DNA from: Lautropia sp.
Lineage (GTDB): Bacteria > Pseudomonadota > Gammaproteobacteria > Burkholderiales > Burkholderiaceae_E
DNA length: 36,104 bases
Reading direction: 5' to 3'
Assembly (NCBI GenBank): GCA_030532425.1
Contig: JAUNLD010000003.1
Coordinates: 80,262 to 116,365 of the forward strand
Shown: one piece after another, positions 25,355 to 36,104 of the stretch
Position numbering within the stretch: the stretch's first letter is position 1
Layout of the letters: each line of letters opens with the position of its first letter
Notes under the pieces: model-generated
What the model was told of the DNA's origin: nothing
Seen by the model: the letters and a program-made list of their open reading frames with translations, nothing else
Databases searched by the model: none
Position numbers and translations under genes: made by a program

Positions 25355-26125
25355 ATGGACACGCTGATCGTCACCCTCGCTTCCTTTCTTGCCGGAATGA
25401 TCGACGCCATCGCCGGCGGGGGTGGGCTGATTACGGTGCCTGCACTGTTTGCGGTCTTTCCGGACAGTGCGCCCGCCAGCCTGCTGGGCACCAACAAGGG
25501 CAGCGCGATCTGGGGCACGACCTTTGCTGCCCGCCAGTATGCGCGCCGGGTACGGCTGCGCCGTGCGGTGCTGCTGCCGGCCATCGGCATGGCGCTGCTC
25601 GGCAGCCTGCTGGGGGCCTGGACGGTGACGCTGATCGATCCGGGATTCCTGCGTCAGCTGCTGCCCCTGGTGCTGCTGGCACTGCTGGTCTACACGCTGG
25701 CGAAGAAGGATCTGGGCCGCCACGCACAGACGGCGCTGCCCCAGCGCACCGAAACCCTGCTGATGGGCGCGATGGCACTGGTGATCGGTTTTTATGATGG
25801 CTTCTTTGGCCCCGGTACCGGCAGCTTTCTGGTGTTCCTGTTCGTGCGCTTTCTGGGCCACGACTTCCTGCAGGCCACCGCCAACGCCAAGTTCATCAAC
25901 ATCGCCACCAACTTCTCGGCCCTGCTGCTGTTTGCCGCCAAGGGACACGTCTGGTGGCAGGTGGCCCTCTACATGGCCGTGGCCAACGTCGCCGGCAGCC
26001 TGCTGGGCACCCGGCTGGCATTGCGGCACGGCACCGGTTTCGTGCGCGTGGTCTTCATCCTGGTGGTGGCAACCCTGATCGTCAAGACCGGCTGGGACGC
26101 CCTGGCGATCACGCAGCGCCCCTGA
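25355..26125 (+). CDS. TSUP family (TauE/SafE) anion permease, YfcA-like
   Basis: Inner-membrane protein of the sulfite/organosulfonate-type exporter family. The 256-residue product has the duplicated family motif: first copy AGMIDAIAGGGGLITVPAL (about 13-31), followed by TNKGSAIWGTTFAA, and second copy IGFYDGFFGPGTGSFLVF (about 144-161), followed by NAKFINIATNFSAL. Seven to eight hydrophobic segments are visible. The closest named relative by these motifs is E. coli YfcA, of unknown substrate; TSUP members move sulfite, sulfoacetate, taurine-related and other anions. The ATG at 25355 has no good Shine-Dalgarno, but the first membrane segment begins at once, so no other start fits. Confidence 0.9.
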   Translation: MDTLIVTLASFLAGMIDAIAGGGGLITVPALFAVFPDSAPASLLGTNKGSAIWGTTFAARQYARRVRLRRAVLLPAIGMALLGSLLGAWTVTLIDPGFLRQLLPLVLLALLVYTLAKKDLGRHAQTALPQRTETLLMGAMALVIGFYDGFFGPGTGSFLVFLFVRFLGHDFLQATANAKFINIATNFSALLLFAAKGHVWWQVALYMAVANVAGSLLGTRLALRHGTGFVRVVFILVVATLIVKTGWDALAITQRP

Positions 26126-26127
26126 GC

Positions 26128-26160
26128 GAGCCCCCGGGCGCTTCCCGGGCCGAGTGGCTC
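26128..26160. terminator. Hairpin between convergent TSUP and spermidine-synthase-like genes
   Basis: GAGCC (26128-26132)/GGCTC (26156-26160) and CCCGGG (26133-26138)/CCCGGG (26144-26149) form an interrupted stem between the stop codons at 26125 and 26159. No clear T tract is present. It could end both transcripts, with Rho help. Confidence 0.45.
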
Positions 26161-26917
26161 AGTCCACGCCCAGCTGGCGTGCCACCGCACCGGCCCAGCG
26201 GCGGGCCGGCAGGCGGTAGTACTGTTCCAGCACGGCCGCGCGCGCATCGAGCTGGGCACGGCTGACCGCCAGCGGCGGCCCCTTCAGCGCCAGCAGCACC
26301 AGGTTGCCCTCCTCCTGCGGATCGAGCAGGAAGACCTGGGGAAAGATCGCGCGGATGCGTTCCTCGCTGCGCGCAAACGAGGCGTGACGGCCAAAGAGGT
26401 TGACGACCATGATGCCCGGTTCGGCCAGCGCCTGCCAGCAGCTGCGATAGAAACGGCTGCTGTCGTGCACCGGCCCGGCTGCATCCTGATCGTACAGGTC
26501 CACCTGGATCACGCCAAAGCGGCCGCGCTGAACCGGATCGCCGACGAAGCGGGCGGCATCGTCCTCGACGATGGCCAGGCGCTCATCGGCGGGCGGCAGC
26601 GCAAACCACTGCCCGGCCACCGCCACCACCTGCGGGCTGATCTCGACCACCGTCAGCGCCGTGCCGGGCAGACGCCGGTGACACCAGCGCGTCAGCGACG
26701 CCGCCCCCAGCCCCAGTTGCAGGATGCGGGCAGGCGGCCGCATGAACAGCAGCCAGGCCATCATGTCGCGGATGTAGGCCAGCACCAGCGTCTCGGGCTT
26801 GCGGATCGACATCGCCCCCTGCACCCAGGGCGAACCGAAGTGCAGGTAGCGGATGCCGTCCAGCTCGGAAAAGCTGATGACTGGTGCTGGCGGCCGGCGC
26901 CGGCGGCGATCAACCAC
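26159..26917 (-). CDS. Spermidine-synthase-like methyltransferase-fold protein
   Basis: The 252-residue product has the Rossmann fold of the spermidine/spermine synthase superfamily: [14 protein letters not shown] (65-78, SAM/dcSAM loop), VVEISP (90-95) with Glu92 in the ribose-binding place, EDDAARFV (118-125), and [14 protein letters not shown] (136-149). It lacks the full N-terminal strand domain of true SpeE, keeping only [16 protein letters not shown] (21-36). Many Betaproteobacteria carry such SpeE-like proteins whose reaction is not established, so I do not call it SpeE. It starts at a GTG inside the end of htpG, overlapping by 8 bp. No Shine-Dalgarno is visible, so translation probably depends on ribosomes finishing htpG. 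No speA/speB/speD partner lies nearby. Confidence 0.8.
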
Positions 26918-28979
26918 CGGAGGCCAGCAGCAGCGCGTTCATGCGGCGCACAAAGCCGGCCGGGTCGTCCAGCTTGCCACCATCGGCCAGCGTGGCCTGA
27001 TCCAGCAGCAGGCTCGACCAGTCGTCGAAGCGGCTGTCCTCGGCCTTCAGCCGCTGCACCAACGGGTGATCCGGGTTGATCTCCAGGATCGGCTGGCGGG
27101 TGGGCACGGGCTGACCGGCCTGCTTGAGCAGGCGCTCCAGCGTGCCGCTCATGTCGCCCTCGCCCGCCACCAGGCAGGCGGCCGAATCGGTCAGGCGGTT
27201 GCTGACGCGTACATCCTTGACGCGCTCGCCCAGCGTGCGCTTGAGCTTCTCGGTGAGGTCCTTCAGGCCTGCCGCCACTTCTTCGGCCGCCTTCTTCTCG
27301 GCCTCGTCGGCCAGCTCGCCCAGATCCAGCCCGCCACGGGCCACCGACGTCAGCGGCGTGCCGTCGAACTCGTGGAGGTGGCTCAGCATCCACTCGTCCA
27401 CACGATCCCACAGCAGCAACACCTCGATGCCCTTCTTGCGGAAGATCTCGAGCTGCGGGCTGTTGCGGGCCCCGGCTTCGGTGTCGGAGGTGATGTAATA
27501 GATGGCCTTCTGGCCATCCTTCATCCGTGCCTTGTACTGGGCCAGCGAGATCAGGCCGTCGCCGGCAGCGCCAGCCTCGGCGCCCTGAGATTCTTTGGCC
27601 TTCTTCGCTGCGCCATCACCCGCAGCGCCCTCCTCGCCCACGACGACGGCATCCACGACATCATCGTCCGAAGCCTGCGCCACCTCGGCATCAGCGGCCT
27701 TGCTCACCACCGGCCCGCCGGTCGAGGCAAAGCGCAGCAAGCCGGCGATTTTCTCGCGGTTCTTGTAGTCTTCACCCACGCCTTCCTTCAGCACCTGGCC
27801 GAACTGCGCCCAGAAGGTCTCGTAGTCGGCCTGCCGGTTCTCGGCCATGTCCTCCAGCAGCGACAACACACGGCGGATGTTGCCCTCGCGGATCAGCTTG
27901 ACGTCACGGCTTTCCTGCAGGATCTCGCGCGAGACGTTCAGCGGCAGGTCGCTGGAATCGACCACACCCTTCACGAAGCGCAGATAGGCCGGGATCAGCT
28001 GCTCGGCGTCGTCCATGATGAAGACACGACGCACGTAGAGCCGGATGCCATGACGCTGCTGACGGTCCCACAGATCGAAGGGTGCATGCTTCGGGATGTA
28101 GAGCAGCTGCGTGTATTCGGTGCGCCCTTCGACCCGGTTGTGCGTGTGGGCGAGCGGGCCCTCGAAATCATGCGAGATGTGCTTGTAGAACTCATCGTAT
28201 TCGTTCTCGGTGATCTCGCTCTTCGGACGCAGCCACAGCGCCTTCGCCTGGTTGACGACCTCCCACTCGCCGGTCTCGACCATCGCCTGCTTCTCGGCAT
28301 CCCACTTCGTGGCCTTCATCCGCACCGGCAGCGCGATGTGATCGGAATAATTGCGCACGAGCGAACGGAGCTTGCCTTCGTCCAGCAGCGAATCGTATTC
28401 GTGACCGTCCTCGGTATCGGTGTCGTTCGGGCGGATGTGCAACATCACCGTGGTGCCCCGCTGCTCGCGCTCGATGGTCTCGATCGTGAACTCGCCATCA
28501 CCGGCCGACACCCAGCGGATGCCTGCGGAGGCCGGATCGCCGGCGTGACGGCTCTCGACCGTGACGCGGTCGGCCACGATGAAGGAGGAATAGAAGCCGA
28601 CACCGAACTGGCCGATCAGGTTCGAATCACGGGCACGGTCACCGGTCAGCTGGCTGAAAAATTCCTTCGTGCCGGAACGGGCGATCGTGCCCAGGTTCCG
28701 GATGGCCTCGTCACGGTTCATGCCGATGCCGTTGTCGCGGATGCTGATCGTGCGGGCACTGCGATCGACCTCGATCCAGATGCCCAGCTCGCTGTCGCCG
28801 CCATAGAGGGCATCGTTGTCGAGCGCCTCAAAGCGCAGCTTGTCGCAGGCGTCGGAGGCATTGGAGATCAGCTCGCGCAGGAAGATGTCGCGGTTGCTGT
28901 AGAGGGAGTGGATCATCAGATCGAGCAGCTGCTTGATCTCGGTCTGGAATCCCAGGGTTTCTTTCTTCGTATCGCTCAT
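26910..28979 (-). CDS. htpG: Hsp90-family chaperone HtpG, with acidic/Ala-rich middle-domain insertion
   Basis: Cytosolic ATP-dependent chaperone. The N-terminal GHKL ATPase domain shows [16 protein letters not shown] (34-49), DNGIGM (82-87), [12 protein letters not shown] (96-107) and [12 protein letters not shown] (122-133). The middle domain has [25 protein letters not shown] within 314-338 and [19 protein letters not shown] around 345-363. The C-terminal dimerisation end follows FIRRMN-type [10 protein letters not shown]. At 689 residues it is about 65 longer than E. coli HtpG (624). Most of the excess is a single run at about 421-475, acidic and Ala/Gly-rich, between GLLRFAST and [14 protein letters not shown]. 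The ATG at 28979 has only a weak Shine-Dalgarno (GAAGAG 11 nt away); conserved start [21 protein letters not shown] confirms the N terminus. A sigma-32-like promoter lies 45 bp upstream. Confidence 0.97.
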
Positions 28980-29023
28980 GGAAAAGACAGCTCTTCTGGC
29001 AATGTCTGCAATGATATCCGCTG

Positions 29024-29053
29024 GAGGTGGGTACGGTGTCGGCGGGTTTCAAG
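29024..29053 (-). promoter_or_regulatory. Heat-shock (sigma-32-type) promoter of htpG
   Basis: On the minus strand, CTTGAAA (29053-29047) is followed after 15 nt by CCCACCTC (29031-29024). The sigma-32 consensus is CTTGAAA, a spacer of about 13-16 nt, and CCCCATNT, so the -35 matches fully and the -10 partly. The predicted leader to the htpG ATG is about 40 nt. htpG is a standard sigma-32 target. Confidence 0.65.
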
Positions 29054-29165
29054 AGGCTCGACCGGTCAAGAGACGATGGCGATGTCAGGAGATGGCACAG
29101 ATGAACAGTAAAGCGGTCGAACCGATACGCGGGCTGATGAGGGAGCAGCCGACCCAGTGCACACG

Positions 29166-29200
29166 AAAACGGGGCGGCACCAGACGTCTGGTGCCGCCCC
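29166..29200 (-). terminator. Terminator of the first lipoprotein gene
   Basis: A perfect 30-bp palindrome (29171-29200; arms GGGGCGGCACCAG and CTGGTGCCGCCCC around ACGT) lies 29 bp downstream of the stop codon at 29230. On the minus strand it is followed by GTTTTC (T4 at 29169-29166). It insulates htpG from this gene. Confidence 0.85.
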
Positions 29201-29229
29201 TGGGCCTGGCTGCCGTGACAGCCCGTGGC

Positions 29230-31074
29230 TTACTGGTTCACACGAGTATTCCAGTGCGCGCTGCCCCAATCATTGGCAGTGGCAGCATAGTAGCTCTGAG
29301 GCTTCAACGCCTGACCCGGCGCCCAGCCCTCGGGCACATTCCAGGTGGTGCAGTTCTTGTAGGCTCTGCCAATCAACATGGCGCTGGTCCAGCACAGATC
29401 GACACTTCTCTCGTCGTCGAGGCTCTTCTCAACGGAAAGGGTGAGCAGCACTCGGCCCTTGCTGCCGGTGCCCGGTTGATCCGATGAGTACTTCTCAGGA
29501 TCGTGCCAGTACTGCACCGTACTGCCGAAGAGGATCAGATCGTTCGGCGCGATGGTTCTGGATGCCGCCCCGCCGGCGAGCTGTTCCCCCTGATACAGCC
29601 AGTACTGCTTGCCCTTGAGATCCTCCGAATACTGGTGAATCCCGGCCCAGCGAGGCAGGGTAAGACCCTTGACCGGGTCATGAGCGACGTGCATGGCCAT
29701 CGTGATCTGATTGAAGGCCCAGACGGTGCCCCGGGGATCGTTGGCGCCTTTCCAGACACCGCTACGGAAAGCATGAAGGTAGCTGCCGATGGCCGGGGAA
29801 TGGGTGCCCGCATCGTTGCCCCCATCAGCATAGGAACTGGCCCTGCTTTCGTAGTACACCGATATGCGGTCAGGATCATCGCTCTCGGGCTTTTTCTCCC
29901 CGGGTTCCGTATCCTGCGGGCCTTTGGCCAGGCTGGCAAACGGCGGGAGCCCTGCCATGCCGCGCGCTCTCGGTGTCCAGGCATCGAACATGGCGGCCAG
30001 CAAGGCGCCGCTGACGCCATGGGCGTTGACAGGTGTGGCCGTGGTTTTCAGGCCTCCTTCGGCAACGGGTGCCGTGCCTTTCCGGTCATTCCAGTTATAG
30101 GTGAAGGAGGTTTCCCCCACCTCGGCGTTGTACCTGTCACGCAGCTCCTGCCCGAGGTGAACGAGGGGCTGGCCCGAGCGCCAGTCCGAAGGCAGCTCCC
30201 ACTGATCACACACCTTCTGAAAATCGTTGGACGCCTTGCTGAACGTGATGCAGGTCGAGAAGCGCCTGTCGTTCTGCTCGTCATGAGCAACATCCAGCTC
30301 CACGCTGCCAAAATCCCTGGCATCCTCGAAACGGGTGTTCCAGGCATGCTTCCAGCCCGTGTAGTACTCGTTGGGCTGAATCGTCGACACCTTCTCACTG
30401 GTCAGTGTCAGCGCCAGCGCTTCTCTTGGCTCGTACTGCCTGAAGTCCGGTGCCTCTTGATACTGCATGCTCAGTGTCTGGCCGATTTCCAGCGGTGCAT
30501 TCACCGGCGGCTGGTTTGCACTCCCCTTCTTCTGCATGCCAGGGAGCGAGACACCAAACTTGACCGCAGGCAGGTCAGGCCGTTTGACCGATGACAGGTG
30601 GGAAGCCTCCCGCAATGGTCCCTCCATGAGGGCAACTTCATAGACATGCCGGCCCAACCCGGTATTGCCGGTATCGGGACTCACATCTTCCTTCAGCAGA
30701 ACCACAGGGCCCTTCAGATCGGTGACCTCCTCCTTGATATTCATGGCGGAAGATGCGTAGGATCGGAACACTTTCCTGTCTGCATCGAGCCAGTTCCACA
30801 GGGGCTGGCCGCTCTCATCCCGCTCGCCGAGCCGCGACAGCAAAGCCTGGATCAGCAGATCACCACGGACATGCATCGCACCGCTGGCAGCATCCTTGTA
30901 AATGGGACCCGAAGCACCGGCTGGTGCCTTGGTGCCGAGTTTGCTCGTGTTGCCGACAGTATCGGTGCCGGCTGCACGGTTGCCTTGATTCGTGGCGTCA
31001 CTGCCGCAGGCAGTGAGGGCCATGCCAAGGGCAATGACGAGCGCATGGTGGGCATGATGAGGACGAAGTGTCAT
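29230..31074 (-). CDS. Large exported lipoprotein of unrecognised family, copy A
   Basis: I do not recognise this family. The 614-residue product has a lipoprotein signal (hydrophobic HALVIALGMALTAC, lipidated Cys23). The rest is soluble and appears to be two homologous halves. Each half has a helical block (RGDLLIQALLSRLGERD, 70-86; HGVSGALLAAMFDAWTPRA, 352-370) and a later domain that starts TIxPN (231, 507) and ends in C-x13-C-x2-W-x2-P-x2-W-x2-G: Cys275/Cys289/Trp292/Pro295/Trp298 and Cys561/Cys575/Trp578/Pro581/Trp584. The Cys pairs may be disulfides. Copy B (31886-33772) is a paralogue along its full length. GGAGG lies 7 nt before the ATG at 31074; the frame upstream to 31128 is not signal-like. 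No catalytic motif is evident. Residues after Cys23 are GSD; an Asp at position +3, not +2, gives no inner-membrane retention signal, so outer-membrane sorting is likely. Confidence 0.85.
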   Translation of the reverse strand: MTLRPHHAHHALVIALGMALTACGSDATNQGNRAAGTDTVGNTSKLGTKAPAGASGPIYKDAASGAMHVRGDLLIQALLSRLGERDESGQPLWNWLDADRKVFRSYASSAMNIKEEVTDLKGPVVLLKEDVSPDTGNTGLGRHVYEVALMEGPLREASHLSSVKRPDLPAVKFGVSLPGMQKKGSANQPPVNAPLEIGQTLSMQYQEAPDFRQYEPREALALTLTSEKVSTIQPNEYYTGWKHAWNTRFEDARDFGSVELDVAHDEQNDRRFSTCITFSKASNDFQKVCDQWELPSDWRSGQPLVHLGQELRDRYNAEVGETSFTYNWNDRKGTAPVAEGGLKTTATPVNAHGVSGALLAAMFDAWTPRARGMAGLPPFASLAKGPQDTEPGEKKPESDDPDRISVYYESRASSYADGGNDAGTHSPAIGSYLHAFRSGVWKGANDPRGTVWAFNQITMAMHVAHDPVKGLTLPRWAGIHQYSEDLKGKQYWLYQGEQLAGGAASRTIAPNDLILFGSTVQYWHDPEKYSSDQPGTGSKGRVLLTLSVEKSLDDERSVDLCWTSAMLIGRAYKNCTTWNVPEGWAPGQALKPQSYYAATANDWGSAHWNTRVNQ

Positions 31075-31419
31075 GTGACGACCTCCAGGATCGATGGCGT
31101 GAAAACACGGGAGAATGCTCAGCACCACCTGATGCGGATGTCTGACCGGCAGGCTCTCCTCTGTCGGTCAGGTCTCCACCAGATCAGTTCTGCTTGCGCA
31201 AGTGTCTGCCACCCATGCCCAGCGACGCGCTTGACAGACAGACAGGTTGTGCTTAGAACAGTATGCGTGCAATTTTGTAACTTAGTATTAATATCCGACA
31301 GTCAACGACCCAGAATTCCGGCTCGAAACGTAAAAAATGTTCATGACATTTCACACATAGACGCTCAACATCATCCGCTCCGAATGCCTTGAACCTAGAG
31401 CGTGTTGTCGGGCGCACGG
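31075..31419 (-). promoter_or_regulatory. 5' region of lipoprotein copy A
   Basis: This 345-bp stretch holds no gene that I can support. It is A+T-rich at 31255-31350, where the promoter should be, with several AT-rich hexamers but no pair close to sigma-70 consensus. CTGACCG (31142-31148) and CGGTCAG (31165-31171) form a 7-bp inverted repeat with a 16-nt spacer in the leader. It resembles the palindrome in front of copy B (33838-33853), so the two leaders may share a regulator or be part of the duplication. A GCGCTTGACAG-like stretch also occurs in both. Confidence 0.4.
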
Positions 31420-31454
31420 AAAAAGGGCCGTATCAGCCTGTACCAATACGGCCC
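31420..31454 (-). terminator. Rho-independent terminator after the lipoprotein remnant
   Basis: On the minus strand GGGCCGTAT (31454-31446) and ATACGGCCC (31433-31425) form a perfect 9-bp stem with a 12-nt loop, followed by TTTTT (31424-31420). It follows the remnant stop codon (31485) by 31 bp. It now ends the transcript of copy B and separates it from the promoter of copy A. Confidence 0.85.
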
Positions 31455-31484
31455 CCACAGACATGGCATCCCCAGGGCCTGTGC

Positions 31485-31852
31485 CTATCGGGCCGCCCGG
31501 GTACGCCAATGAACGATTTTGCCCCCCACACGGGCTACCACATAGCAACTCTGCGGCTTCAGCACCTGGCCCGGCGTCCAGCCCTCTGGCACGACCCAGC
31601 TCGTGCAGTGCCTGGCCGGGTTGAAGCCGGCCCCGTCAAGCTCGTCCAGCACATGTCGACGCATCAGGCATCCGTACTGCTCTTTTCGATCGTCAGCCGA
31701 AGCAGCGCCAGCCGTTTTGGCTCACCGTAGCGCACGGGGTCATGCCAGTATTGGACGGCGCTGCCGAACAGGATCAGGTCATTGGACACGATCACCTTGC
31801 CGCCACCGTCACGGCTCAGCTGTTCTCCCTGATACAGCCAGACCTGATACCC
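31485..31852 (-). pseudogene. C-terminal remnant of a third lipoprotein paralogue
   Basis: The reverse strand encodes about 120 residues matching the last domain of copies A and B: VWLYQGEQLS, VSNDLILFGSAVQYWHD, then LTIEKSSTDA, then CVDMCWTS, and after a frame change GFNPARHCTSWVVPEGWTPGQVLKPQ and a final WRTRAAR-stop (TAG at 31485-31487), the first and last shown in pieces. Two lesions are visible: a TGA exactly where copy B has an Arg (DAR), as expected from CGA to TGA, and a frameshift after CWTS. Nothing homologous to the first 500 residues is present: homology starts some 34 bp after the stop codon of copy B. This fits a tandem duplicate that lost most of its length and then decayed. 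Confidence 0.85.
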
Positions 31853-31885
31853 TCGTGATCAATAATCAGCACACAGGCAACCGTC

Positions 31886-33772
31886 TTACCGGGCTGTGCG
31901 GGTACTCCAGTAAAACGGAGGCTCCCAGTTTCTATTACGGGCGTGCGTCATGAGCTGGTAACCCTGCGGCTTCAGAATCTGGCCTGGCACCCACCCCTCC
32001 GGGATGACCCAGGTCGTGCAATTCTTGCTCCATTGGTACCCATTCACGGTGTAGATCGTCCAGCACAGGTCGGCGCTTCGAGCGTCGCTCGCACTCTTTT
32101 CCACGCTCAAAGTGACGGCTGCCGTACTCTTGGGGTTGCTGTAAAGCTCGTCGTCGATCCAGTACTGCACGATGCTGCCGAAGAGAAGCAGGTCGTTCGG
32201 GGCGATGACCTTGACCTTCCTGTCAAGACTGAGCTGTTCACCCTGATAAAGCCAGATCTGATGGCCACCGTTTTTTTCATCGAGGCCCAGTTCATGCAGG
32301 CCAGCCCAGCGCGGCAAGGTCAGCCCCTTCACCGGGTCGTGGTTCAGATGCATGGCCATCGTCAGCTGCTCGAACGACGCGGAAGCAGCGCGAGGCTCTC
32401 CCGGGCGTTTCCAGGTGCCGCTGCGAAAAGCGTAGAGATAACTGCCCACGGCAGGCGAATGCGTGTCCGCATGAGCCGTGCCATCGGCATAGGTGGTGGC
32501 CCGGCTTTCGTGGTACACCGACACACGGGCAGGGGGATCACCGAAAGGCACGAGCGTGCCAGGTGTGGGGTCCAGCGCGCCTTTGACAAGACTGGCGAAA
32601 CCGGGCAGCGCACGCATGCCGGCAGCACGGGGCGTCCATGCATCGAACATGGCAGCCAGCACCGCTCCGCTGATGCCATGCTGATTGACAGGCTCCGTGG
32701 TGGTTTTCAGGCTATCGGCCGAAACCTGTGGCGTGCCTTTGCGGTCATTCCACCGCCAGAACGTGCGGTCATCAAGGGAAAGGGTCTCTACCAGATATTG
32801 GGACAGATGGGTCAGCGGCTCTCCTGAAGACCAGCCATCAGGAACCTGCCACCGATCACACAACCAGTGGTTCTCATAATACTGGCCCTCGTAATGCACG
32901 CAAGCCTTGACATGCCTTTTTTCGAGATCCACGACCTCAACTTCCAGCTGCACATGGGTGATGATATTGCTTTTCCCCCACCAGCCATGGTGCCATAGCA
33001 CTCCTCGATCTACATAGGGATTTTGACCATCATTCCAATAATAGGCATTCGGATGAATGGTCTTGGCAGTCCCGGCTGTAAACGTATATTCCTCGCCCAG
33101 CCCACCGTAATACAGGTTTGTGCTGATAAAGGCGTTATGCCTCATGGCCCGAAGCTTCATCGTGTCGCCGACTACCAGCGGCGTTGTCACCGGCGCCTGA
33201 ATCCCTCCCCCCTTCCTGCTCATGCCAGGCATCGACAAGCCAAACTGGATGGAAGACTCGTCAAAACGCCTGGTGCGCCAATCTCCTTCCCGCTTGTGAA
33301 TATGCGGTGGATAAAGGAGCGGGCCATGCTTGAGGTCGATCGTCGCCACATAGGGACCCAATCCCGTCCGGGCCGTGTCAGGCTTGATGTCTTCCGCCAC
33401 CAACGCCGCCGGCCCCAGTAGCGGCAACTCTTCATCTCCGGTATAAAAATTAACATATTTATAGGTGTCTGCATCGAGCCAGCTGATCAGCGGCTGACCT
33501 TTCGCATCACGCTCATTCAGCCTCGACAGCAAAAGCTGTATCAACAGATCTCCACGAATATGGATCTTGCGAGTGTCAGGATCCTCGTATATGGGCCCCT
33601 TGTCATCCACCGATGTGGGCGCCTTGGTGCTGAACACGCCCTTCCCGACACGACTGTCGGTACCGGTTGAACCACCGCCGTCAGGGCTGACAGATTCGCC
33701 GCCACAGGCGGCCAACGCCACCCCAAGGGCGATGGCAAGCACAGTCTTGCCGTGTTGAAAACGGAATGTCAT
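31886..33772 (-). CDS. Large exported lipoprotein of unrecognised family, copy B
   Basis: Paralogue of 29230-31074. The 628-residue product has a lipoprotein signal (TVLAIALGVALAAC, Cys23) and a Gly/Ser/Thr-rich linker to about 55. Shared blocks are GPIYEDPDTRKIHIRGDLLI (59-78), the LLSRLNERD helix, KTTTEPVNQHGISGAVLAAM (356-375), ATTYADGTAHADTHSPAVGS (425-444), and DPVKGLTLPRWAGLHE (479-494). The Cys/Trp motif occurs twice: Cys291/Cys305/Trp308 and Cys570/Cys585/Trp588, with 13 and 14 residues between the Cys. A strong AGGAGG lies 7 nt before the ATG at 33772. Codon use is more A/T-tolerant than the neighbours (for example around 33440-33470), suggesting a different history from the backbone. 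Function unknown; a secreted binding or structural role at the cell surface is a guess. Confidence 0.85.
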   Translation of the reverse strand: MTFRFQHGKTVLAIALGVALAACGGESVSPDGGGSTGTDSRVGKGVFSTKAPTSVDDKGPIYEDPDTRKIHIRGDLLIQLLLSRLNERDAKGQPLISWLDADTYKYVNFYTGDEELPLLGPAALVAEDIKPDTARTGLGPYVATIDLKHGPLLYPPHIHKREGDWRTRRFDESSIQFGLSMPGMSRKGGGIQAPVTTPLVVGDTMKLRAMRHNAFISTNLYYGGLGEEYTFTAGTAKTIHPNAYYWNDGQNPYVDRGVLWHHGWWGKSNIITHVQLEVEVVDLEKRHVKACVHYEGQYYENHWLCDRWQVPDGWSSGEPLTHLSQYLVETLSLDDRTFWRWNDRKGTPQVSADSLKTTTEPVNQHGISGAVLAAMFDAWTPRAAGMRALPGFASLVKGALDPTPGTLVPFGDPPARVSVYHESRATTYADGTAHADTHSPAVGSYLYAFRSGTWKRPGEPRAASASFEQLTMAMHLNHDPVKGLTLPRWAGLHELGLDEKNGGHQIWLYQGEQLSLDRKVKVIAPNDLLLFGSIVQYWIDDELYSNPKSTAAVTLSVEKSASDARSADLCWTIYTVNGYQWSKNCTTWVIPEGWVPGQILKPQGYQLMTHARNRNWEPPFYWSTRTAR

Positions 33773-33837
33773 GTCACATCCTCCTGGATCGATACATCAA
33801 ATACGAGAGATGCTTGCGCCCGACGCTGGAAGGGGAT

Positions 33838-33853
33838 GCCTGACCGGTCAGGC
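33838..33853. promoter_or_regulatory. 16-bp palindrome in the leader of lipoprotein copy B
   Basis: GCCTGACCGGTCAGGC is a perfect palindrome, 66 bp before the ATG of copy B. Copy A has a similar but more widely spaced CTGACCG...CGGTCAG in its leader. It may be an operator or a leader hairpin. Confidence 0.45.
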
Positions 33854-33940
33854 AAGCGCTTGACAGTATGAATGTAACAATTTGACATCAGGGCAAGCGC
33901 TGATGCTCGATGACTACAATGTTTCGATTACTGAATAAAA

Positions 33941-34978
33941 TTACTTTTCGATACAAATATCGGGTGAGCCTGATGGCGTGAGCCCCAGCACGAACACGTC
34001 CCCGTCCGCTGCCATGAACGCACGGCCACGGTAATGCACCCGCACTTCAGCCAGCAGGCCGGCCTGCTCCTCCGGCGAGTGGTGCCGGGGGCTGAAATGC
34101 GTGAGGATCAGGTTCGGCAGCCCCGCCTCTTCGGCAAAGCACGCGACCTCCCGGGCGCTGCTGTGCCCACGCCCGGCCCCGATGCGATCCTGCACCGCCT
34201 GCGAATAGGTGGCTTCGTGCACCAGCAGCTGGGCGCCCCGGCAGGCCCCGGCCAGCACCGAAGGCGCTTCATTGTCCCCGCCGATGACGGCCGCGATCGC
34301 CTGATGACGGATGCTGAGCACCGCCGCGCTCTTCAGCGTGCACCCCTGCCAGACGACATCCTGCCCCTCACGCAACCGTCCCCACAGCGGCCCTGGCGGA
34401 AGACCCTGGGCCTCGAGCGCGGCCGCATCGAGCTTCACGATGCGCTGCCTCAGCTCGAATCGAAACGCATGGCTCGGCACCCGATGCTGCTGCGCGTGCG
34501 TGCTGAGCCACAGCTCGGCATCCCGCCCCACCATCAGCCGCCGAGCTTCGTCCTGGAAGGTCTCGACATCGGTGAAGCGGATCTCGAAGGGCAGATGCAG
34601 ATCCGTCAGCTGCCAGGTGGCCTGCAACCACTGCCACAATGGCGCCGGTGCGATCAGCTGCAACGGATGCTGCCGGCCATTGAGCCCCATCGTCGCCAGC
34701 AGCCCGGGCAGCCCATAGCAATGATCGCCATGCACATGACTGATGCAGATGCCCGCCAGATCGTGCAGCGACAGCGGTTGCACCAGCAACTGATGCTGCG
34801 TGGCCTCCGCGCAGTCGATCAGCCACCAGCCCCGCCCCGTGGCCGGGCTCTGCAACGCCATCGCCGACATGTGACGATGGCGGGTGGGCACACCGGATGA
34901 AGTGCCGAGGATGGTGAGTTTCAGCATGGGGAAAAAAACCTGCTCATCCACCCGTCTGTCAGGGCGGCTGCTCAGCAT
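33941..34978 (-). CDS. rnz: Ribonuclease Z (tRNA 3' processing endonuclease)
   Basis: Metallo-beta-lactamase-fold endonuclease that cuts pre-tRNA 3' trailers. The 345-residue product shows LTILGTSSGVPTRHRHMSA (21-39), the zinc motif HVHGDH (81-86, with SHVHGDHCYGLPGLL around it), IGGDNEAPS, LLVHEATY, GHSSAREVACFAEEAG and LILTHFSPRHH, the full RNase Z series. It starts at 34978 if the TGATG overlap with the toxin gene is used; GGAGG lies 7 nt upstream of that ATG. A second ATG at 34927 (MLKLTILG) gives the usual family N terminus but has a poorer Shine-Dalgarno. E. coli RNase BN/Z is 305 residues, so the extra 17 residues are not needed for the fold. Confidence 0.92.
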   Translation of the reverse strand: MLSSRPDRRVDEQVFFPMLKLTILGTSSGVPTRHRHMSAMALQSPATGRGWWLIDCAEATQHQLLVQPLSLHDLAGICISHVHGDHCYGLPGLLATMGLNGRQHPLQLIAPAPLWQWLQATWQLTDLHLPFEIRFTDVETFQDEARRLMVGRDAELWLSTHAQQHRVPSHAFRFELRQRIVKLDAAALEAQGLPPGPLWGRLREGQDVVWQGCTLKSAAVLSIRHQAIAAVIGGDNEAPSVLAGACRGAQLLVHEATYSQAVQDRIGAGRGHSSAREVACFAEEAGLPNLILTHFSPRHHSPEEQAGLLAEVRVHYRGRAFMAADGDVFVLGLTPSGSPDICIEK

Positions 34979-35469
34979 CAGAAAACCTCCGCAAGCATCT
35001 GGACCCGGTCTTCGCCTCTTGCAGCAGAACGGGACCAGTCATCCGGCGGGTGGCCGTTCTCCAGCATCCTGCGAAACACCCGATAGGCATTATCGTCACT
35101 CTCGTAGGCCCGTTTGGTGTCCTCGTCATTGACCCATGCAAAAACGATCACCCGACTGGAAGCGTGATAACGAAAGAACAGCCGGTATTGCTGAAAGAAC
35201 TTAGCTCGAAACCAGTGCTTGTGATCCTTGCCCAGCGTCCCACCCTGGCGATACTCGGGACGGGAAGGGTCTTGTGGAACAATGTCGAAAACGAGCCTCG
35301 TGATCGCCGCCAGCCTTTTGGTCACGTTTTTCTTCACATAGCCCGTCGGATCTTTCTGCTTCAGCGCCTCAACCTGCTGTGCCAGTGCCTCGAGCTGCAT
35401 GAGAAACAACGGATGAGCAAAAACCGTCCAGCCGTTAATGACCAGAGGCTTCGGATTGCCCGTGCTCAT
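34978..35469 (-). CDS. yhaV: Type II toxin, YhaV family ribonuclease
   Basis: Ribosome-dependent mRNA-cleaving toxin of the RelE superfamily. The 163-residue product follows E. coli YhaV (154) along its length: VINGWTVFAHPLFLMQLEAL (9-28), a KDPTGYVKKNVTKRLAAI block, HKHWFRAKFFQQYRLFFRYH, VIVFAWVNDEDTKRAYESDD, and RRMLENGHPPDDW near the end. The basic and aromatic residues of the YRLFFRY strand are kept, so it looks active. Its ATG overlaps the antitoxin stop by 4 bp (ATGA). Its TGA shares one base with the rnz start (TGATG), which links toxin translation to rnz; the last codons contain the rnz Shine-Dalgarno. Confidence 0.93.
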   Translation of the reverse strand: MSTGNPKPLVINGWTVFAHPLFLMQLEALAQQVEALKQKDPTGYVKKNVTKRLAAITRLVFDIVPQDPSRPEYRQGGTLGKDHKHWFRAKFFQQYRLFFRYHASSRVIVFAWVNDEDTKRAYESDDNAYRVFRRMLENGHPPDDWSRSAARGEDRVQMLAEVF

Positions 35470-35795
35470 TCATCATCTGCCCGCAAGGGAGCATCCAGAT
35501 CGACCTCCACACCAGCAACCAGCCTCTGAAGGCGTCGAGCCATGCCCGAATCGAGCACTTGCAGATACTCGGGATGATTGCGCATGTCCGGAGCCAGAAA
35601 ATCCGGAAACCGCCCCAACACCGGATCATCCCCTTCAGCACTCTCGGCGCGCGTCATCACCACCTCGCCATCCAGGCAGATGCTGTAACGGATCTTGTCA
35701 CGCTTGCCGAGCCCAAGCGCACGGCGCACCGTTTCTAGCACTGTGGTCTGGTAACGGTCCGTCAGCGTGGATTCGGCATCGAGCGAGACAGGCAT
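35466..35795 (-). CDS. prlF: Type II antitoxin, PrlF (SohA) family
   Basis: AbrB-fold antitoxin that binds YhaV and represses the operon. From the ATG at 35795 the 109-residue product is close to E. coli PrlF (111). It has AESTLTDRYQTTVLETVRRAL (split around residue 6-26), KIRYSICLDGEVVMTR, DDPVLGRFPDFLAPDMRNHP, and VDLDAPLRADDE, matching the E. coli VTIRGQTTIPAPVREAL, IHYEILPGGQVFM, FLRFLDADIQNNP, and NIDDEIGDDE blocks. Alternative ATGs at 35855 and 35849 would add 18-20 residues, but these codons overlap two palindromes that fit an operator better. The start is therefore moderately certain; the family is well supported. Confidence 0.85.
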   Translation of the reverse strand: MPVSLDAESTLTDRYQTTVLETVRRALGLGKRDKIRYSICLDGEVVMTRAESAEGDDPVLGRFPDFLAPDMRNHPEYLQVLDSGMARRLQRLVAGVEVDLDAPLRADDE

Positions 35796-35810
35796 GGAAG
35801 GCAATTTCCA

Positions 35811-35850
35811 GACTGGCGTTGAGCGCCAGTCATGGTAATGCAATTGCATT
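35811..35850. promoter_or_regulatory. Probable operator of the prlF-yhaV-rnz operon
   Basis: Two palindromes lie just before the chosen prlF start: GACTGGCG/CGCCAGTC with a 5-nt spacer (35811-35818, 35824-35831) and a perfect 14-bp AATGCAATTGCATT (35837-35850). On the minus strand TTGACC at 35862-35857 followed after 17 nt by TTACCA gives a weak -35/-10 pair overlapping the second palindrome. Autoregulation at such sites is usual for PrlF-YhaV. Confidence 0.5.
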
Positions 35851-35983
35851 GACATGGTCAAAGATGACTTCCCATCGAAGACGGGATCAAGGCGAGGCGC
35901 ACCGTATTTGCCCTGTCAAATCTGCACAATTGTAATGACCCACTAAAAACCTGCTCAGGTGTTATCGTTCGAGGAGAACACTG

Positions 35984-36025
35984 ATGAGCATGTTGATGAA
36001 CGAAGAAATCAAGCGCTGGACCTGA
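35984..36025 (+). pseudogene. 5' stub of an IS transposase-like ORF
   Basis: An ATG with GAGGAG 7 nt upstream (35971-35976) opens a 13-codon ORF containing MNEEIKRWT and then a stop. This peptide resembles, from memory, the N terminus of small OrfA-type transposase proteins (MNEEIKRWTAKRK) of IS3-like elements. The coding match stops at CTGGACC (36016-36022), where the next element begins. The upstream AT-rich stretch from about 35934 may be its left end. Identification rests on a short match. Confidence 0.45.
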
Positions 36026-36104
36026 CCTCCTCCCTATAAGTTGGCCCATCCAGAAGTGGAAGAATCGGCGACACTAGGACAGGAGGTCCGTCGCCATGAA
36101 GAAG
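36023..36104 (+). mobile_element. Left end of an IS3-type insertion sequence, cut by the window edge
   Basis: From TGACCTCCTCCC (36023-36034) the sequence switches to a short non-coding leader with a strong AGGAGG (36081-36086) and an ATG-AAG-AAG start (36096). TG-starting, GA/CC-rich ends and a leader of about 70 bp before an MKK start are typical of IS3-family (IS407-like) elements. Only the left end is visible, so the family and inverted repeats cannot be confirmed. Confidence 0.5.
36096..36104 (+). CDS. First three codons of a probable IS transposase OrfA
   Basis: Only ATG AAG AAG is in the window. The AGGAGG 9 nt upstream and the IS-like context make it a likely OrfA start. Nothing else can be said. 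Confidence 0.4.

Follow-up and report, generated by a model that had tools for sequence, protein, structure and literature searches.

The locus

The window, i.e. the whole stretch of 36,104 nucleotides that was analysed, comes from a Lautropia sp. genome (G000) and harbors two lipoprotein genes, here named A and B, in the same orientation (Table 1). Their open frames extend over 29230-31128(-) and 31886-33772(-), with the ATG of A at 31074 and that of B at 33772, each downstream of an AGGAGG-like ribosome-binding site. Both products carry a signal peptidase II lipobox at Cys23 (LTAC in A, LAAC in B). The remaining cysteines belong to a repeated motif, C-x13-C-x2-W-x2-P-x2-W-x2-G-x2-L, which begins at residues 275 and 561 in A, and at residues 291 (x13) and 570 (x14) in B. 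The complete set of cysteines is thus 23, 275, 289, 561 and 575 in A and 23, 291, 305, 570 and 585 in B, which bears out the spacing described for the two proteins in a preceding sequence-only reading. The upstream neighbor is presumably ribonuclease Z-like and the downstream neighbor is taken by us to be of the HtpG/Hsp90 type; they are called rnz-like and htpG-like below. Simple-sequence repeats of the expression-switching kind were not found in 26001-36104, and switching by such repeats near A and B was discarded as a candidate.

Table 1. Features of the lipoprotein locus (positions in the window).
Feature	Position	Strand	Remark
Flank, HtpG/Hsp90-type chaperone gene (presumed)	26910..28979	-	by sequence
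Terminator-like hairpin 3' of gene A	29171..29200	-	13 pairs; consensus scan only
Lipoprotein gene A	29230..31074	-	614 aa, lipobox LTAC (Cys23), two units
A, C-terminal unit	29239..30030	-	profile envelope
A, Cys/Trp motif 2	29305..29394	-	residues 561-590
A, N-terminal unit	30079..30882	-	profile envelope
A, Cys/Trp motif 1	30163..30252	-	residues 275-304
Decayed 3' remnant of third (middle) copy	31506..31852	-	broken frame
Lipoprotein gene B	31886..33772	-	628 aa, lipobox LAAC (Cys23), two units
B, C-terminal unit	31895..32689	-	profile envelope
B, Cys/Trp motif 2	31973..32065	-	residues 570-600
B, N-terminal unit	32738..33571	-	profile envelope
B, Cys/Trp motif 1	32813..32902	-	residues 291-320
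Flank, metallo-beta-lactamase-superfamily gene	33941..34978	-

Duplication of a whole unit

The two-unit proteins originated by duplication of one unit. A profile built exclusively from 85 one-unit proteins, after removal of 4 of 89 rows that represented split or cut ORFs, scored 38.0 and 85.9 bits on the two halves of A and 35.0 and 80.2 bits on those of B, compared to 3.3 bits for the best of 1000 shuffles, which makes all four halves members of the same family. With a smaller profile of 18 sequences, one of them from a two-unit protein, the scores were 36.6 and 90.3 bits for A and 33.2 and 86.0 bits for B at a shuffle maximum of 11.2. In the first halves of A and B the match to the one-unit profile spans only model positions 121-247, i.e. 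its second half; hence, the claim of a full-length repeat is based on the comparison of all 37 N-terminal with all 37 C-terminal units, which align with 99.95% probability over 244 columns. Furthermore, the one-unit profile found 37/37 N-terminal and 37/37 C-terminal units at E < 1e-3, and for 10 of 13 two-unit proteins direct blastp of the first against the second half gave a match at E <= 0.01. The three proteins without such a match include A and B, which would suit the assumption of a chance or compositional pattern in non-homologous halves, but the profile scores far above the shuffles, the complete recovery of both unit types and the direct matches in the other proteins refute it, and we give it practically no credence. 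Two homologous halves had already been proposed from the sequence; the repeated element is, however, not a domain of 90 residues but the entire unit of about 250-270 residues.

The unit remained unnamed until now and is missing from every domain library searched. Pfam and NCBIfam, searched with A, B and 54 units, gave only scattered single-member noise, and only scattered single-member matches were obtained from PHROGs (20 units) and from PDB sequences (profile A1). Its initial description as an unrecognised family is consistent with these searches, which returned no match to a characterised family.

Paired cysteines and lipoprotein signals

The seed units were originally chosen by a pattern demanding both motif cysteines, and the pair was recounted on 109 units outside the seeds. 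Both cysteines occur in 105 of them, neither in four and a single one in none. The four units without the pair comprise one gapped fragment and three N-terminal units of one subgroup, in which the loss was perhaps a single event. Because the two residues are either both present or both absent, they probably form a disulfide, as suspected initially. Moreover, 106 of the 109 units contain 0, 2 or 4 cysteines, and an optional second pair is complete in 39, absent in 41 and single in 5 of the 85 one-unit members. The distance between the motif cysteines is identical in both halves of A, but ranges from x11 to x26 over 159 units (x12 in 105), so that the fixed spacing noted before holds for this copy and not for the family. 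Likewise, the TIxPN/VIAPN opening is readable in A and B but does not appear among the columns that are at least 60% conserved in 163 family units, and should hence be regarded as a subgroup feature. The body of the unit is probably beta-rich, a hint from a crude propensity count.

A lipobox, scored by pattern and not by a trained predictor, was found in 112 of the 126 family ORFs read, in agreement with the expectation of exported lipoproteins; among the other 14 some are cut or split and some apparently have another signal sequence or none. Outer-membrane sorting requires that Asp is not at position +2. This position is Gly in 102 and Asp in only one of the 112 ORFs, which, by this sequence rule, suggests placement in the outer membrane. 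Gly runs of up to seven residues and low-complexity linkers follow, with a median linker of 90 residues ahead of one unit (n=79) and 47 ahead of two (n=33).

A large family in Lautropia

The two genes had been regarded as a two-copy family, which is ruled out by further members in this genome, where the unit profile has 34 matches and 20 family ORFs were read. All nine Lautropia genomes searched contain matches, 2 to 34 apiece and 203 in total. The proposed profile search for other architectures and organisms, performed with the whole unit instead of the 90-residue domain, revealed one-unit and two-unit proteins in the nine Lautropia genomes and relatives in one other genus. In the stretches fetched, 69 of 126 family ORFs are located less than 1.5 kb from another member.

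Outside Lautropia just two weaker relatives were found, L106:1445-2296 (284 aa) and L107:3662-4912 (417 aa), both in genome G011, which belongs to a different genus in the same bacterial family. The one-unit profile detected L106 at E 6.9e-9 (for 5000 proteins) and L107 at just 0.024, while, within the set searched, phmmer with the L107 domain found L106 at E 4.5e-7. They resemble minimal forms of the Lautropia family with lipobox, Gly run, Pro-rich linker and a single unit ending in a CW...P...R..C core, but differ in having no W-x2-P-x2-W-x2-G-x2-L tail. When the G011 relative was used together with its linker in tblastn, 38 of 74 genomes gave matches, mostly via the Pro/Ala-rich linker; just two further matches, in G004 and G011, fell within the domain itself and the others were discarded as compositional. 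In the order and phylum searches no more than six candidates per genome were scored, so weak relatives may be missed; plasmids (one query) and viral contigs yielded no relative.

Turnover of the array

Between A and B, positions 31129-31864 share 83% DNA identity with the region where genome G006 has an intact middle copy. In this nearest relative the same flanks enclose three copies, of which the A copy is split, compared to two genes and a remnant here, and in genome G005 the flanks adjoin with no array between them, an htpG-like gene of 90% identity being next to the rnz-like gene. The decayed middle copy together with the three copies in the nearest relative suggests that the A/B pair is the remainder of a three-gene array.

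The dN/dS of B (0.53) is higher than that of the htpG-like (0.13) and rnz-like (0.17) genes. However, this partly results from the low dS of B (0.14, compared to 0.41 for htpG-like), its dN (0.075) only modestly exceeds that of htpG-like (0.053), and two readable pieces of A have ordinary ratios of 0.26 and 0.14; hence, the ratio does not establish diversifying selection. A fixed partner gene of the family was ruled out in the fetched flanks (approximately 1.5-2 kb), where none of the 25 largest neighbor clusters occurs at more than two loci per genome.

Possible function and alternatives

The explanation that we favor, with about even confidence, is that these proteins are outer-membrane lipoproteins with one or two disulfide-stapled lobes, which by gene birth and death form a ligand-binding or adhesive repertoire. 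The lipobox cysteine would anchor the protein in the membrane, and the Gly- and Ala/Ser/Thr/Pro-rich linker would act as tether for one or two units of about 250 residues. Each unit would open with a G-x2-G-x-V-x-L-x2-M-L element, continue with a probably beta-rich body and close with a near-invariant Trp, the disulfide (C-x11-26-C) and the W-x2-P-x2-W-x2-G-x2-L tail. Two-unit proteins would be two-lobed products of unit duplication, and the genes would have been copied in tandem as well as to scattered sites and have afterwards diverged or decayed. We propose that the lobes face outward and bind varied ligands such as host, salivary or partner-bacterium molecules, and that the whole set may thereby act as a diversifying adhesin/receptor repertoire.

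Alternatively, the lobes could point into the periplasm and have a role in the envelope itself, by binding peptidoglycan or envelope proteins or by protection from toxins entering the periplasm, in which case an arms race or redundancy, and not the binding of outside ligands, would underlie the expansion. Many Gram-negative lipoproteins are placed in this way by default, tandem copies and divergence would fit immunity genes too, and we could not tie a dedicated surface exporter to the family. Nevertheless, we consider this possibility rather unlikely. Toxins or other partners do not recur in the neighbor clusters mentioned above, and the family has long flexible linkers, which are commoner in exposed lipoproteins. 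T6SS immunity lipoproteins were rejected as candidates, since VipA (PF05591) had no match in the nine Lautropia genomes at E <= 1e-5 and one in 14 controls (E. coli), although toxins from other species are conceivable.

It appears quite improbable that the proteins are TbpB-like cargo of Slam/type 11 secretion, with each unit made of a handle and a barrel lobe. TbpB is two-lobed, and a lipoprotein of about 600 aa with two homologous halves and one-unit relatives would fit such cargo. Furthermore, SlipAM (PF04575) gave matches in seven of nine Lautropia genomes, four of them over the cut-off, and in none of 14 controls. However, none of the 54 units gave a TbpBBD or lipoprotein-C barrel match at E <= 1, so membership in TbpB by sequence was rejected. 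The four loci read among the seven SlipAM matches (8-14 kb each) have FecR-domain genes close by and contain no family member, and G001 (L. dentalis) has 31 family matches and no SlipAM match. The barrel and handle domains of Slam cargo are described in PMC12282271.

Returning to an outward-facing repertoire, we tentatively propose in addition that the unit is a new extracellular domain, which developed from a minimal lipoprotein domain, as in the one other genus, into the main, diversifying set of surface proteins in oral Lautropia. One-lobed and two-lobed forms would have come about by repeated duplication of the unit, with turnover through tandem birth and death, and each species would bear its own set of ligand-binding heads.

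Significance and relation to known systems

Lautropia is part of the oral flora of humans, and the literature on the genus, as far as surveyed, consists mostly of abundance surveys. With up to 34 matches per genome, the family may be among the largest exported families of Lautropia and is a natural starting place for studies on its adherence, coaggregation or feeding. A single structure would make the entire family accessible, since the units align over the greater part of their length. The comparison of this genome with G006 and G005 represents a natural case of turnover in a tandem lipoprotein array.

With the Slam/T11SS lipoproteins of the TbpB, HpuA and fHbp type the family shares the flexible-linker lipoprotein design and the existence of one- and two-lobed forms, but it differs by the missing Pfam match and by its absence from the SlipAM loci read. 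Borrelia and Leptospira possess lineage-specific paralogous lipoproteins, and staphylococci have tandem lipoproteins. The Lautropia family resembles these groups in its many divergent copies, tandem arrays, decay and genus restriction, whereas it has no library link to them, and its two-unit architecture and Cys/Trp motif were found only here in our searches.

Family size and distribution

The neighbouring lipoprotein genes A and B belong to a family that is large and almost restricted to Lautropia. The sequence-only reading had described a two-copy family, which proved far too small: a profile built from 54 units (A1) matches all nine Lautropia genomes. The 203 matches in total, some of them partial or stop-carrying, comprise 34 in the window's own genome (G000; genus Lautropia, a 3.1 Mb draft assembly with 125 contigs and 88.8% completeness), 31 in L. 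dentalis (G001), 9 in G002, 27 in G003, 2 in G004, both of them weak pieces, 34 in G005, 30 in G006, 26 in G007 and 10 in G008. The eight loci from the genome scan were likewise all from Lautropia (L. dentalis KCOM 2505 and Lautropia sp. MAGs). As regards other organisms, one of 65 genomes of the taxonomic family matched beyond the genus (G011, another genus), but the order and phylum sets gave no match outside Lautropia. There the wider profile A6, with at most six candidates per genome scored, found 5 of 399 order genomes, all Lautropia, and 1 of 398 genomes of the phylum set, the window's own.

The family is real and unrecognised in the libraries searched. Pfam, NCBIfam and the PDB sequences returned no family match apart from scattered noise, which bears out the initial impression that no known family carries this signature. 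Among the titles listed for Lautropia (genome, lipoprotein, adhesin, comparative genomics/paralog) and for expanded lipoprotein families in general, none concerned the family, subscription journals being outside the scope.

Anatomy of the unit

Features of the window
Feature	Position	Strand	Description
A	29230-31074	minus	614 aa; ATG behind good ribosome-binding site; signal peptide, lipobox LTAC at Cys23
Middle copy	~31506-31852		broken 3' remnant only
B	31886-33772	minus	628 aa; signal peptide, lipobox LAAC at Cys23
PrlF antitoxin / YhaV toxin pair	34978-35861	minus	Pfam matches; immediately past the rnz-like gene

A and B share 46% identity across almost their entire length. That each consists of two homologous halves could be confirmed with a profile of 85 one-unit proteins, which scored 38.0 and 85.9 bits on the halves of A and 35.0 and 80.2 bits on those of B, compared to a top score of 3.3 bits among 1000 shuffles; in the first halves it aligned along its second half only (model positions 121-247). 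Among the two-unit proteins, the same profile matches 37/37 first (N) and 37/37 second (C) units at E < 1e-3; when the profile of the N units is aligned to that of the C units, the probability is 99.95% over 244 columns. Therefore, the repeat is a unit of approximately 250-270 residues and not the 90-residue domain assumed earlier. When the first half was compared with the second by blastp, 10 of 13 two-unit proteins gave a match at E <= 0.01; for A and for B none was found at this threshold, hence their halves lie far apart.

The stretches analysed cover part of the 203 matches and yielded 126 family ORFs, comprising 163 units. One unit is present in 89 ORFs (some cut or split), two in 37 and three in none. 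A lipobox was found by pattern in 112 of the 126, with Gly at +2 in 102. One-unit proteins have linkers rich in Ala, Gly, Ser, Thr and Pro. Two one-unit members (L145:1743-3608 and L167:4233-6476) have linkers of approximately 320-480 residues, and that of L145, which is Ala/Glu/Lys-rich and coiled-coil-like, suggests a long stalk.

The most conserved columns of the 163 units are a Trp (99%), two Cys (98% each) and the tail W, P and W (93% each). The Cys/Trp motif positions stated in the sequence-only reading are exact, and the only cysteines of A and of B are the lipid Cys and four motif Cys. Both cysteines of the pair occur in 159 of the 163 units and neither in 4. Since having both cysteines was a condition for selecting the seed units, a fair count has to rest on the remaining 109, where both are present in 105, neither in 4 and a single one in none; 106 of these 109 have 0, 2 or 4 Cys in total. 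This pairing is good evidence for a predicted disulfide between the two motif cysteines, as initially proposed, but their spacing varies more than copy A implies: the gap is x12 in 105 of 159 units and ranges from x11 to x26, and the strict C..W..P..W..G..L pattern holds in 113 of 159. The four units lacking the pair are one gapped fragment and three N units from one subgroup, perhaps a single loss event. A second, optional Cys pair near unit start and middle occurs in 39 of 85 one-unit members, is absent in 41 and single in 5.

In G011 the relatives carry a single unit with the core CW...P...R..C, preceded by a lipobox, a Gly run and a Pro-rich linker. Against the one-unit profile, L106 reaches E 6.9e-9 and L107 a weak 0.024, both for 5000 proteins. 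Because these relatives have this core without the W-x2-P-x2-W tail, the tail was probably added in Lautropia onto an older core.

History and turnover

When the 163 units were placed in a FastTree tree, a single clade with support 0.995 contained 26 of the 37 C units along with two one-unit rows, and N units lay elsewhere. In four proteins (G000, G001, G003, G007) N and C clades are sisters with support 0.587. More than one origin of the two-unit forms is therefore possible, though weakly supported.

Family neighbours lie within 1.5 kb of 69 of the 126 ORFs. The htpG-like and rnz-like genes that flank the array in the window enclose three tandem copies in G006, the nearest relative; DNA around the window's middle remnant is 83% identical to the region of the intact middle copy in G006. 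In G005 the flank genes are neighbours with a gap of ~200 bases and no array (G005:C24:9373-9574), in G008 they lie 73 kb apart, and the rnz-like gene was not found at E <= 1e-20 in the other five genomes. From this arrangement, gain of the array in the G000/G006 line is likely, loss in G005 being the alternative. The dN/dS of B is 0.53 compared to 0.13 and 0.17 for the flanks, owed partly to low dS; A's two readable pieces gave 0.26 and 0.14. The G006 copy of A (L195:2370-4414) is split across two overlapping frames, which may reflect real decay or an assembly error.

Proposed function and comparison with known systems

The A/B family is most likely an expanded family of outer-membrane lipoproteins with a new unit. 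The lipobox, the long linker and the rarity of Asp at position +2 suggest outer-membrane lipoproteins bearing tethered lobes, which would face either outward or the periplasm. Together, the family proteins could represent a repertoire of binding heads. Such a repertoire fits better than a housekeeping part or a single subunit of a fixed machine because of the expansion, divergence and array turnover, and because no recurrent partner gene was found in the flanks read. A role in T6SS immunity is disfavoured, VipA being matched in 0 of 9 genomes.

SlipAM-like proteins matched in 7 of 9 Lautropia genomes and not in L. dentalis. At the four SlipAM-like loci read (L138-L141, four genomes), FecR-domain genes and no family members lie nearby, possibly a separate exporter-cargo pair. 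The SlipAM-like gene of these loci is TPR-containing and of outer-membrane type; the Pfam scan of L139 gave TPR_Slam, not SlipAM. The main text of two T11SS papers (PMC12282271, PMC8406197) mentions Lautropia 0 times.

Genus-specific lipoprotein expansion is a familiar kind of thing, and the unit as a domain is new to the libraries searched. The two-lobed plan of A and B would resemble that of TbpB-type surface lipoproteins, whereas by sequence none of 54 family units gave a TbpB or lipoprotein-C match at E <= 1.
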